Shown: piece by piece, positions 272 to 5,075 of the stretch
How the letters are laid out: every line of letters starts with the position of its first letter
Numbering within the stretch: the stretch's first letter is position 1
NCBI GenBank assembly: GCA_027448785.1
Contig: DAIDMW010000007.1
Coordinates: forward strand, 1 to 34,183
Direction: 5' to 3'
DNA: 34,183 nucleotides
Source: Candidatus Colwelliibacteriota bacterium
GTDB lineage: Bacteria > Patescibacteriota > Minisyncoccia > UBA6257 > Colwellbacteraceae
Program-made: the position numbers and the translations under genes
The notes under the pieces: model-generated
What the model was told of the DNA's origin: nothing
The model's database searches: none
What the model saw: the letters and a program-made list of their open reading frames with translations, nothing else

Positions 272-829
272 CTATTTATTTTTTCTGGAGAGCCAGTCGA
301 AGATTTCTTCTTCGAACCCCGATCTCGTCCAATCGTCATCCTTGCTTTCAAGAAGCATCTTTCTCAGCTCGTCCATCTCGAACCATCGAAGCTGATTGAT
401 CTCGTCCTCCTCGTAGGTTATGGAATCGATATCGCCGTTCCACTCCATCATAAAGACCGCGACGAACTCTCTGGTGTGCCCGATTTGATGGACGTTGATG
501 AAGTACAGATCTTCTTTTCTCACTCCCAGCCCGAGCTCCTCGTTGCATTCCTTGATGGCTGTTTCCTCGTATCCCTCGCCCGCCAGGACGTGTCCGCCGA
601 AGAACGGTTCCCACTTTCCCGGGCTGCTGTCTTTTTTCAGAGACCGCTGCTGGCAAAGGATCTGTCCTCCGGAGTTCTTTATCCAAACGTTGGCGTTGCG
701 GTGCCAGTGCTCGTCACGGTGCACCTCCTCCCTCGGCTTGGCTTCGACTGGTTTATTGCGTTCGTCGACGACGAACAAAAACTCATCCTTGTTTATCATC
801 GGCGGAAGTATAACCGAGGCAAGAGACAA
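272..829 (-). CDS. NUDIX hydrolase (possibly starting at the internal Met near 796)
   Basis: Nudix box GGHVLAGEGYEETAIKECNEELGL. Confidence 0.85.
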   Translation of the reverse strand: MSLASVILPPMINKDEFLFVVDERNKPVEAKPREEVHRDEHWHRNANVWIKNSGGQILCQQRSLKKDSSPGKWEPFFGGHVLAGEGYEETAIKECNEELGLGVRKEDLYFINVHQIGHTREFVAVFMMEWNGDIDSITYEEDEINQLRWFEMDELRKMLLESKDDDWTRSGFEEEIFDWLSRKNK

Positions 830-1822: not shown

Positions 1823-1969
1823 ATGATGCTTCAGAGTTCTATGGCGGCCGATATCGTAGTTTATATATTGATTGCAGCCGTTTTTGTCGCCGCGATACTT
1901 CTCCCATATCCGAAGTTTGAATGGAAAAACAAAAAAAATAATGAATCTAACCGAGAGTCTCAGAAATAA
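1823..1969 (+). CDS. Small single-TM membrane protein (48 aa), first ORF of cytochrome b cassette
   Basis: MMLQSSMAADIVVYILIAAVFVAAILLPYPKFEWKNKKNNESNRESQK*; overlaps the next gene's start by 29 nt; absent from supplied ORF track. Confidence 0.5.
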   Translation: MMLQSSMAADIVVYILIAAVFVAAILLPYPKFEWKNKKNNESNRESQK

Positions 1970-2546
1970 AATAGAACAAAACCTGCCGATGGAGCAGTTT
2001 TTGCCGAATAAACTGCCGATTTACGTATCTTCCTTTGTATATATGTTCGGCATACTTACTTTGACTAGCCTAATTGTTACAATTCTTTCTGGATTGGTTA
2101 TGGTTCTAAACGGACCAACTTGGTATCAATTTTCTGCCGCGGGATTCATATTTCGCTCAATTCATTTCTGGGGAGTGCAAGTTTTCTTTTTCTTTCTCTT
2201 CCTTCATTTTTTCTCAGTATTCTTTACGGCGGGCTGGCGGGAGGGCCGCTACGCGACTTGGGCGATCGGAGCATTCCTTCTTATGTTTTCCATTATTGAA
2301 GCTTTTACCGGCTTTTTGATGGAGGGAGGATTTTTCGCGCAGTGGAACCAGGTGCAATCCAAAGATGCGTTCAACTCTATGGGAGTATCTGGATTTTTTA
2401 ACGTCTTAAATAACGGACAGCTTTACGGGTTGCACGTCAGCGCCATACCAGCAGTCCTCATCATCCTTCTTATAATCCACATAACTCTCGTTAGACAAAA
2501 AGGAGTCGTTCCACCGATTCAAATTCAAGCAGAGCGGCATGCCTAA
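1941..2546 (+). CDS. Cytochrome b N-terminal domain (b6-like) di-heme membrane subunit
   Basis: Four-helix cytochrome b N-domain; His pairs IHFWGVQVFFFFLFLH (H-x13-H) and LHVSAIPAVLIILLIIH (H-x14-H). Start chosen at ATG 1941 (MNLTESLRNKIEQ), not 1872 as in the track. Confidence 0.85.
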   Translation: MNLTESLRNKIEQNLPMEQFLPNKLPIYVSSFVYMFGILTLTSLIVTILSGLVMVLNGPTWYQFSAAGFIFRSIHFWGVQVFFFFLFLHFFSVFFTAGWREGRYATWAIGAFLLMFSIIEAFTGFLMEGGFFAQWNQVQSKDAFNSMGVSGFFNVLNNGQLYGLHVSAIPAVLIILLIIHITLVRQKGVVPPIQIQAERHA

Positions 2547-3486
2547 GTATGTAAATCCAGAAAACACATATCCATCCAAAGAGGGCGATCTCATCAAAGA
2601 AATGCTCGTAGCTTTCGTCTTCGTTTCGATTTTAATAACTGTCCTGGCTCTTGTTTTTAAGTCCCCCTTCACGCCTCCGATTACGATTAAACAAGTAGCC
2701 GAAAGCTATCCGGTCCTTTTTGAACAAACCGCCATGAGGGATCTGATGGGCACCAGCGCCATAGCGACTTACGGACCTCCATACAACTCCGGACCAGCGC
2801 AACAAAGCTTGGGGTGGTTTAGTCCGGAACGATGGGGAGGGGTTTCCATTCCTATAAACCCAAGCAAGTTATATGTAACCACTCCCTTGGAAGAAGCGTC
2901 CAACATAAATCCAGACATACAAAAAGCTCTTTCGGAATTCAATTCCGCCACCGACGCACAAAAGAAAGTGTGGGAGGGTAATTATTACGCTGCTCTGCAA
3001 AACGCCACAGCAACTGCCGGAACCGTCTCGGTGTCAGACGGCGATTACGGTCCAGTATCTCCGATGATGAACTATCTCCTAGGTTTGGGGAAAAGCGGAT
3101 TCATGGACTCGTCTCTCAATTCCGGAGGCGAATACAATAATGGAGTTTACACCTATAGCTTTGCCCGCAGCCTTCTTTTTCTACAAGGAGAAGCACTTAG
3201 CAATGTAGCAGCTCAAAAAGGCCTCCTCGGATCCCAGTTCGGAATAGCGCGAGACTTAAGCCCTTATCCAGGTCCTTGGTGGTTATTCGTGTATTCATAC
3301 CTTTACCAAATACCGCCTTATTCCACGGTTGCGGCCGGAGATCTGCTGGTAGCCCTAACAATGCTCGGATTGTTTCTCGTAATACTTTTCCTGCCGTTCA
3401 TACCGGTGTTAAACAAAATCCCCTATTATATTCCAGTTTATAAAGTCATTTGGCGAAGATGGTATAAGAGACAAAATAAGCAATGA
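2539..3486 (+). CDS. Cytochrome b C-terminal/subunit-IV-like protein with large insertion
   Basis: DLIKEMLVAFVFVSILITVLALVFKSPFTPP at N-term and PYPGPWWLFVYSYLYQIPPY...LFLPFIPVLNKIPYYIPVYKVIWRRWY at C-term resemble cytochrome b C-domain helices; overlaps upstream gene by 8 nt. Confidence 0.7.
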   Translation: MPKYVNPENTYPSKEGDLIKEMLVAFVFVSILITVLALVFKSPFTPPITIKQVAESYPVLFEQTAMRDLMGTSAIATYGPPYNSGPAQQSLGWFSPERWGGVSIPINPSKLYVTTPLEEASNINPDIQKALSEFNSATDAQKKVWEGNYYAALQNATATAGTVSVSDGDYGPVSPMMNYLLGLGKSGFMDSSLNSGGEYNNGVYTYSFARSLLFLQGEALSNVAAQKGLLGSQFGIARDLSPYPGPWWLFVYSYLYQIPPYSTVAAGDLLVALTMLGLFLVILFLPFIPVLNKIPYYIPVYKVIWRRWYKRQNKQ

Positions 3487-3887
3487 AATTAAAAGCGGCA
3501 ATATTGGCTATTCTTGTTATCTTAGGGATAGTGCTTTCGTTATACGTCTACCAGGGCATCGTCGAGGATCGAGTGTTAAGCGCCACACTGTTTTCCATTG
3601 CTTTTCTATTGGCAGCGATGTTCGCCGCGAAAATAGCGGCGGAATTCAGACAATTAAACAAATACTTGAGAGCGCGCAATAGGATACAAGCGATCATTCT
3701 CCCCTTGGTCGGAAACGAGAGGCACGCCTCTGTTCTGGCTGAAAATCTAGTCCTGCGCAAAACAAAACTTGAAGATTGGCCGGAGATACCGGAAAACGAA
3801 ACGCATGAAATAAAACTCATCTTATCAAAAGCCTTCATCAACAACAAAAAAGCTCCGCGCAATTCGGAAGTAAATTTCCAAGAGTGA
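3483..3887 (+). CDS. Small membrane protein of the cytochrome b cassette (hypothetical, about 2 TM)
   Basis: ATGA overlap with upstream gene; two N-terminal hydrophobic segments, charged C-terminus; no CxxCH or Rieske motif. Confidence 0.6.
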   Translation: MKLKAAILAILVILGIVLSLYVYQGIVEDRVLSATLFSIAFLLAAMFAAKIAAEFRQLNKYLRARNRIQAIILPLVGNERHASVLAENLVLRKTKLEDWPEIPENETHEIKLILSKAFINNKKAPRNSEVNFQE

Positions 3888-3899
3888 TATCTTCTTAAC

Positions 3900-5075
3900 T
3901 CACTCGCTTTTTATAGCCTTCGCTTTCCCGAAAAATACCTGGTAAAGAAGAATATTAATTCCCATCACAGCTCCATAAATATAAAATGGCAGCGGTATGT
4001 CGCTAAGATCGAAGAGATAGCCGGTAAGCGAGGTTGCTCCCGAAGAGGCCAGCATACGCGCCATCTGGTTCACGCCCAGCGCTCTCCCGACCTCGTCTCC
4101 TTCGACCATGTTAACTAAAGCCGACTGCTGAATAGGAGCGGAAACAATTCGCAAGGCCGGCATAATGAAGTAGATGAAAAGCGAAACCGGAAGAAGGCGG
4201 AAGATCGGCATTATAACCGTTGCTGCGGCGCCGATCCCCCTCGTCCAGATTACGCTCTTCAGGAAGCCGAATTTTTTGTCCAGCAAAGGAGACAGAAGAA
4301 GAGACAAAGCACCCAGTCCGCCACTGATAAACGCATACAGGGACATCTCTTTTATTGGCAAGTGGTAGACGATGATAAAAAACGGAATAAGGAACGGCGT
4401 GACTAATCCTTGAGCAAAGCCGTTCAGCATCCCGGTAATGGTGAACTTGCCGATTACAATCTTATTCCTCATCCTAGATATCTTTTCCGGGCGGAACGGA
4501 TCCTTGATCGGCAAGAGAAAGAGAGCTGAAACCAATCCGATTAAGGTCGCGATAAAGAAGATGTTCTCCTCGCTAACCACGCCGGCCAAAAGAGACCCCA
4601 ATGCCGCCATGCCGCCGGAAAGGAACATAATGATGGAAAAATACCTAGTGCGCTTTTCCGGCCGGGTCAGGTCTACCAGTAAGGCGTTTTGCAGCGGAGC
4701 AGCCATGCCGCCGATGCCGCCGCCGGCCAAAGAGCCGGTGGCAGAGTACGTCCCTAGAATGGCCGCAAGAAACAAAATCCACGGATAATGGAAGTAATAG
4801 ATCAGGCCGGAACTTAAGGGAAGCATCAAACTTACGATAAGAAGCGCGTTCTTGCGGTTGGTCGCGTCAGCCAGGTATCCGACAACCAACCCCAGAAAGG
4901 CTCCAGCTATGATCGCTGCCGTATAAATCGCCCCCAAGAAAAGCGATCCATAATGAAGCTTGGATAAAACGAGATAAGGAAAATCGATGGCGATCATTCC
5001 GGCAGCCACGCTGCGGAAGATGCGGAATGCGATCACCATCCAGAGCGAGATAGCGTTTCTTCTTTTTTCGTTCAT
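3900..5075 (-). CDS. MFS transporter
   Basis: 391 aa, about 12 hydrophobic segments; GYLADATNRKNALL loop motif. Confidence 0.85.
   Translation of the reverse strand: MNEKRRNAISLWMVIAFRIFRSVAAGMIAIDFPYLVLSKLHYGSLFLGAIYTAAIIAGAFLGLVVGYLADATNRKNALLIVSLMLPLSSGLIYYFHYPWILFLAAILGTYSATGSLAGGGIGGMAAPLQNALLVDLTRPEKRTRYFSIIMFLSGGMAALGSLLAGVVSEENIFFIATLIGLVSALFLLPIKDPFRPEKISRMRNKIVIGKFTITGMLNGFAQGLVTPFLIPFFIIVYHLPIKEMSLYAFISGGLGALSLLLSPLLDKKFGFLKSVIWTRGIGAAATVIMPIFRLLPVSLFIYFIMPALRIVSAPIQQSALVNMVEGDEVGRALGVNQMARMLASSGATSLTGYLFDLSDIPLPFYIYGAVMGINILLYQVFFGKAKAIKSE

Follow-up and report, generated by a model that had tools for sequence, protein, structure and literature searches.

The window analyzed here, by which we mean the whole stretch of DNA (34,183 nucleotides), is all of contig C7 of G000, a 597-kb CPR MAG of 47 contigs that is estimated to be 100% complete; the bacterium itself is very small, probably lives as a symbiont and has hardly any genes for respiration. 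(Note that G-numbers denote genomes, G000 being the window's own, that L-numbers denote the loci of relatives, and that P0001 to P0004 denote the proteins of the operon.) The forward strand carries an operon of four genes that includes the only cytochrome b gene copy in G000. In particular, the first gene (1823 to 1969, + strand) specifies a 48-aa peptide with a single transmembrane (TM) helix, P0001; the second (1941 to 2546, + strand) specifies P0002, a 201-aa protein with four TM helices that corresponds to the N-terminal half of a b6-type di-heme cytochrome b; the third (2539 to 3486, + strand) specifies P0003, a 315-aa protein that corresponds to the C-terminal half and consists of a TM helix, a large extracytoplasmic insert, a PGPWW segment and a second TM helix; and the fourth (3483 to 3887, + strand) specifies P0004, a 134-aa protein with two predicted TM helices at its N terminus. 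The operon is adjoined on the other strand by a gene for an MFS transporter (3900 to 5075, − strand; PF07690, E-value 6.2e-29), which is part of a conserved slot described below.

Successive open reading frames of the operon overlap by 29, 8 and 4 nucleotides, so that the four overlapping frames of the original prediction are borne out by their coordinates, and the 8- and 4-nucleotide overlaps are identical at L042 and L044. The start of P0002 is the ATG at position 1941, which is common to the relatives (the longest open reading frame would start at a TTG at position 1872). The order that characterizes this split form, namely TM peptide, b6 half, C-terminal half and two-TM protein, is kept at L042, L044, L045 and L047; at L043 the contig stops before the fourth gene. 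Moreover, when relatives were compared, each of the four genes showed a pN far lower than its pS (pS was mostly saturated). The kept gene order and the low pN agree with the earlier suggestion that the overlapping genes form a maintained unit.

The two small membrane proteins appear to belong to this unit. Counterparts of P0001 are found at the same place at L042, L043, L044, L045, L047 and, by eye, L065, and have in common a hydrophobic stretch and, for the most part, an LPYP motif; pN is well below pS also in the portion of the gene outside the overlap with the next gene. Thus, P0001 is probably a small subunit of the enzyme. P0004 matched no family in Pfam or NCBIfam. Its counterparts at the same place at L042 and L044 are 54–60% identical to it, weakly alike proteins are encoded at L045 and L047, and P0004 is probably an accessory subunit of the split form.

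A b6 half with ligands for two hemes and a divergent C-terminal half

P0002 scored above the Pfam cut-offs of PF00033 (1.4e-11, 45 bits) and PF13631 (4.7e-11, 43.4 bits), which are about 27 bits. The protein contains the pairs His75-x13-His89 and His165-x14-His180 within its four predicted TM helices, its best matches among PDB sequences are cytochrome b6 chains, and an ungapped alignment places the two pairs on the corresponding His of b6. All four heme-ligand His are also invariant in 22 fused relatives. Judged by its sequence, P0002 is therefore a cytochrome b N-terminal domain with ligands for two b hemes, which it would be expected to bind, and the b6-like di-heme subunit with intact H-x13-H and H-x14-H spacings that had been called from the window stands. 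The most conserved region of the fused family is the outer CD loop, in which 59% of positions are at least 95% identical (with the topology assumed from b6).

The original prediction would have failed had structural models placed the His outside a four-helix bundle. A predicted model of the fused relative L051 (pLDDT 75) matched cytochrome b chains with a best E-value of 1.4e-6 and superposed on b6 chains at 3.4–3.5 Å over about 180 columns; note that whole-chain matches had a large rmsd and that the confidence of the model is low in the CD loop and in portions of the insert. The cytochrome b fold is thus seen in the relative, as a prediction. One residue sets the family apart from b6f. A Cys of b6f binds heme cn covalently, and the corresponding position is Met35 in the window and Ser in the fused relatives.

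In most relatives the b6 half and the C-terminal half are fused as one open reading frame of about 455–475 aa (typically about 467 aa). The two halves are therefore one enzyme, of which the 315-aa P0003 makes up the C-terminal half. P0003 had been described as subunit-IV-like, and the fusions uphold this as far as its position in the enzyme is concerned; homology to subunit IV did not hold up. None of 27 C-terminal halves matched PF00032 or any other Pfam family, P0003 being among those without a Pfam match, and none matched PDB sequences by profile; a model of P0003, itself modest (pLDDT 69), gave no fold match in the PDB. Only two TM helices are predicted in P0003, and the third helix that is usual in subunit IV is not. 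The C-terminal half has instead an outward insert of about 180–200 aa (in L051, a new region of 177 residues between helix E and PGAWW). No relative whose sequence extends as far as the place of PEWY has its Glu there; PGPWW, PGAWW or PNSWW is found instead (a correspondence that is by position, without detectable homology). P0003 contains neither His nor Cys, and the insert is thus unlikely to carry a metal centre with the usual ligands.

With two helices in place of three, a large outward insert, no PEWY Glu and no match to subunit IV, the enzyme does not form a bc1/b6f complex. PetB of b6f resembles P0002 in its four-helix di-heme domain, in its His spacings and in being split from a C-terminal protein, but it has the heme cn Cys and works with subunit IV, the PEWY Glu, a Rieske protein and cytochrome f. 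Most of the relatives share the joining of N- and C-terminal halves with actinobacterial QcrB and the other fused cytochromes b of bc and bcc complexes, which were the top fold matches of the L051 model; the family differs from them in lacking a detectable Rieske or c-type partner, in having two C-half helices and the new insert, and in scoring far below the NCBIfam cut-off. The best NCBIfam model for P0002 was that of ExtP (NF040969), the b-type cytochrome of selenite/tellurite reduction operons, at 62.8 bits; this is far under the cut-off of 290 bits, and no such operon surrounds the window's gene. Superoxide oxidase CybB is alike in outline, being a small stand-alone quinone-linked membrane cytochrome b (PMC11869295). 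Unlike the P0002/P0003 enzyme, it belongs to the PF01292 family, for which P0002 scored 22 bits against a cut-off of 30.1, and has no C-terminal half. By these comparisons the enzyme counts as a cytochrome b and falls outside the bc1/b6f complexes, ExtP and b561.

Split and fused forms and their genomic setting

Within the family of this bacterium, a search of 27 genomes found the gene in all five of the window's genus and in none of 22 from other genera; in two of the five (G015 and G017) the b6 half and its partner are in one open reading frame of about 465 aa. Across the order, 244 genomes yielded 19 matches in 10 of 173 genera, one of which (in G089) is clearly divergent. (This locus, L041, encodes a shorter cytochrome b of 380 aa in a genome that has a heme-copper oxidase, and is not a close family member.) Among named genomes, 31 loci were detected, some of which are on the same contigs as the order-wide matches, in Saccharibacteria, Doudnabacteria, Berkelbacteria and other Patescibacteria bins (Parcubacteria included), as well as in unlabeled bins and bins labeled Bacillota, Actinomycetota, Planctomycetota or archaea; note that bin labels can be wrong. 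At L046, L065, L053 and L069 the flanking genes seem to agree with the Bacillota or Actinomycetota label of the bin. In line with the guess that similar orphan cytochrome b pairs may exist in other phyla, the family is patchy, occurs in CPR and some other phyla, and consists mostly of one fused protein. Viral contigs gave no match, and neither did plasmids for P0002; for L065, plasmids gave only distant cytochromes b from Actinobacteria.

These plasmid proteins, from Pseudarthrobacter and Streptomyces, are uncharacterized and annotated as cytochrome b N-terminal domain-containing proteins. They are fused, and no Rieske or c-type gene is annotated near their genes (L093:4875–5984, L094:3956–4927 and L095:4842–5954). 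They are about 32% identical to L065 and differ from the family in lacking the large insert and in having a short segment of the PPWNFWW type and, by eye, a third hydrophobic stretch in the C-terminal half. At L095 the cytochrome b gene is flanked by two genes for heavy-metal P-type ATPases, and at L094 there is a metal-sensitive regulator gene nearby.

In a tree of N-terminal halves the split group, which comprises the window, L042–L045, L047 and two rows labeled Bacillota, was separate from the fused rows with a support of 95/100; note that the Bacillota branches are long and meet, and that their placement is unsure. The two forms nonetheless share a setting. PAP2, ssb, rpsF and rpoC genes adjoin the cytochrome in the window and at L042, L051 and L066, which represent four genomes of the genus. 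Two of these genomes have the split form in this slot, and the other two have the fused form, whose b6 half is 32–37% identical to that of the window. The persistence of the slot with one or the other form in it suggests that the two are functionally equivalent. The MFS gene is within the slot in three of the four genomes (it is not at L042), and relatives of it adjoin the cytochrome at L044, L051 and L066.

It is scarcely credible, given this setting, that the genes are decaying or contaminating ones without function in their host. The data do come from MAGs, and some relatives sit in doubtfully labeled bins, but selection on all four genes is visible in the low pN, the slot recurs in four genomes of the genus, and the operon shares its contig with the core genes of that slot.

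Two further genes were seen near the cytochrome. A Nudix protein is encoded in the window (272 to 829, − strand), whose best NCBIfam match, below the cut-off, is isopentenyl-diphosphate isomerase and whose relatives lie upstream of the cytochrome at L042 and L043. At five Saccharibacteria-like loci a membrane protein of about 185 aa and of no known family is encoded near the cytochrome (L049:3045–3599, L050 from 4000 onward, L058:3486–4049, L059 from 1774 onward and the start of L062).

Respiratory partners in G000 and in its relatives

The original prediction noted that no Rieske protein, cytochrome c or terminal oxidase is encoded in the window, and named a complete bc1/b6f operon elsewhere in the genome as the finding that would overturn it. 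No such operon was found; G000 has its one cytochrome b copy and neither a detectable Rieske protein nor a detectable CBB3-type cytochrome c. Rieske proteins (PF00355) were not found in any of the five genomes of the genus, whose estimated completeness is 91–100% (10 of 14 control genomes matched), and CBB3-type cytochromes c (PF13442) were not found in any of 16 genomes that carry the cytochrome b gene. Similarly, G000 gave no match for heme-copper oxidase (PF00115) and, like the rest of the genus, none for bd oxidase (PF01654), and no secretory CxxCH candidate was present in 342 kb of it. These are profile searches of MAGs for which named control genomes gave matches, and divergent proteins can escape profiles. 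Within the limits of a MAG and of the profiles used, the absences noted for the window thus extend to all of G000, and an intact di-heme cytochrome b is encoded in a CPR genome without detectable Rieske, CBB3-type c or oxidase partners.

We considered whether the operon belongs to a bc-type complex of which the Rieske and c-type components have escaped detection, either through divergence or because they fall in gaps of the MAGs. The b6 half is, after all, clearly that of a cytochrome b, MAGs miss genes and the search models are generic. Against this stand the lack of a Rieske protein in all five genomes of the genus at such completeness and of CBB3-type c in the 16 carriers, together with a C-terminal half that has no PEWY Glu, no predicted third helix of subunit IV and, instead, a large insert on the outer side. 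We therefore regard a hidden complex as improbable. Note that a bc-like complex in CPR bacteria would not itself be new, as both a cytochrome b-Rieske complex and multiheme cytochromes have been described in a Parcubacterium (PMC5220378).

The description of the cytochrome as an orphan holds for G000 but not for the family as a whole. G014, which is in the same genus, has a heme-copper oxidase, and its cyoB and cyoA genes, of a bo3-type quinol oxidase, are on the contig of its cytochrome operon (L043:162–3099), with the near end about 1.8 kb away. The family and a bo3 quinol oxidase occur together in G014, G069, G070, G074 and G082. Across the order, five of the seven genomes with a strong oxidase match have the family, compared to 18 of 244 overall (Fisher p = 2e-5, or 9e-4 at genus level, with kinship ignored). 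The other 13 of the 18 family genomes have no strong heme-copper oxidase match.

That this co-occurrence is with a quinol oxidase bears on the idea that the hemes serve chemistry other than that of quinones, for example the reduction of extracellular ferric iron or the reductive uptake of metals or siderophores, with the MFS protein as transport partner. The idea draws on the MFS genes of one family that adjoin the cytochrome in the window and at L051, L066 and L044; we consider it very unlikely, since the operon at L042 lacks an adjoining MFS gene and no iron gene was seen beside the operon.

Other candidate partners were tried and set aside. NDH-2 was not found in G000, and each genome of the genus has one Pyr_redox_2 match, of thioredoxin-reductase length, which argues against NDH-2 as a general partner. 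A flavoprotein like NDH-2 or SQR is encoded within 5 kb of the cytochrome gene at L049, L050, L059 and the archaeal L072. A cupredoxin-like protein of G000 lacks, by inspection, the Cys and His of type 1 copper, and cupredoxin matches were scattered. (Cupredoxin-like proteins of lipoprotein size and without these ligands are encoded at L090:1291–1788 on contig C18 of G000 and at L091, in each case with an MFS gene upstream.) VKOR, a quinone-dependent type of enzyme, is encoded in G000; it is found in 105 of the 244 genomes of the order and showed no association with the family (p = 1), so that it was rejected as a specific partner. A scan for flavoprotein, 4Fe-4S and Rieske motifs across about 63% of G000, the window included, gave one match, which is transporter-like.

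A candidate function

The operon is conserved without its usual partners in a genome poor in respiration, and its relatives are spread across tiny bacteria and archaea; it thus probably encodes an uncharacterized stand-alone electron-transfer enzyme. The reading that we prefer, and to which we give a probability of about 0.5, is that of a stand-alone, Rieske-less membrane oxidoreductase with two hemes that would connect the quinone pool with a partner on the outer side, would be unable to run a Q cycle and would depend on scavenged heme and quinone. The operon would specify one membrane enzyme, built from a b6-type di-heme four-helix bundle and the divergent C-terminal half, in which the outer heme is probably covered by a lid and pocket made up of the extracytoplasmic domain, the PGPWW segment and the highly conserved CD loop. 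Without a Rieske protein, there would be no high-potential branch for bifurcated quinol oxidation; both hemes should thus relay single electrons that travel between the quinones of the membrane and an outer-face partner, and a bifurcated Q cycle would be impossible for the enzyme. Oxidation of quinol, with the enzyme serving as an electron sink, seems the most likely direction and would fit genomes with and without an oxidase. The co-occurrence with the bo3 quinol oxidase, the flavoproteins like NDH-2 or SQR close to the gene at L049, L050, L059 and L072, and the presence in G000 of VKOR, an enzyme of a quinone-dependent type, count in favor of this overall reading.

The main rival to quinol oxidation is quinone reduction. 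The outer site might take electrons from an extracellular donor (such as superoxide, ferrous iron or a host carrier) that the hemes would pass to quinone, as in CybB. Superoxide oxidase is a stand-alone four-helix protein that oxidizes superoxide directly (PMC11869295), the outer loop of the family is conserved, and an enzyme that reduces quinone would be a sensible companion to the bo3 quinol oxidase in the five genomes that have both. We nevertheless think this direction unlikely, as CybB is in another family (to whose PF01292 model P0002 rises only below the cut-off) and the 13 genomes without a strong heme-copper oxidase would lack that enzyme to drain the quinol, with G000 also lacking a bd oxidase.

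For quinol oxidation as for the enzyme at large, the source of the cofactors matters. UbiA prenyltransferase (PF01040), the marker tested for quinone synthesis, was not found in any of the five genomes of the genus, and the quinone link therefore rests on what is known of the cytochrome b family and on co-occurrence elsewhere. The heme and quinone of the enzyme are probably scavenged. Consistent with this, quinone and heme scavenging has been proposed for a Saccharibacterium (PMC6031116), and soil CPR genomes that have a cyo operon contain no genes for quinone synthesis (PMC8407418).

We found no description, in the open-access literature that was searched, of a Rieske-less cytochrome b with such a C-terminal half. 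The expectation of an unusual quinone- or membrane-linked redox device has survived in that a Rieske-less two-heme cytochrome b lies in a maintained unit; it has to be amended in that this device is not peculiar to G000. Less securely than we propose the function of the operon itself, we tentatively suggest that the family constitutes a stand-alone type of cytochrome b enzyme that has not been described before. It would have an extracytoplasmic domain of its own in the place of the Rieske protein and a patchy presence in CPR, archaea, Bacillota and Actinomycetota, and may equip ultra-small cells that otherwise live by fermentation with a redox outlet or inlet that is linked to quinone and runs on scavenged heme and quinone. 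Such a family suggests that cytochrome b can shed the Rieske and Q-cycle machinery and acquire a new outer domain. A di-heme enzyme that is under selection in a genome of about 600 kb, where searches for UbiA, a Rieske protein and an oxidase gave no match, is a sign of redox exchange with a host or with the surroundings. It bears on the question of how surplus electrons, oxygen and disulfide formation are managed in those CPR bacteria that have no visible electron transport chain. The operon also supplies a defined protein for expression and testing.

On contig C8 of G000 a TspO/MBR gene lies directly beside the VKOR gene (L018:2375–2833, − strand, and 2836–3303, − strand). TspO proteins bind porphyrins, and this pair could bear on the supply of heme.
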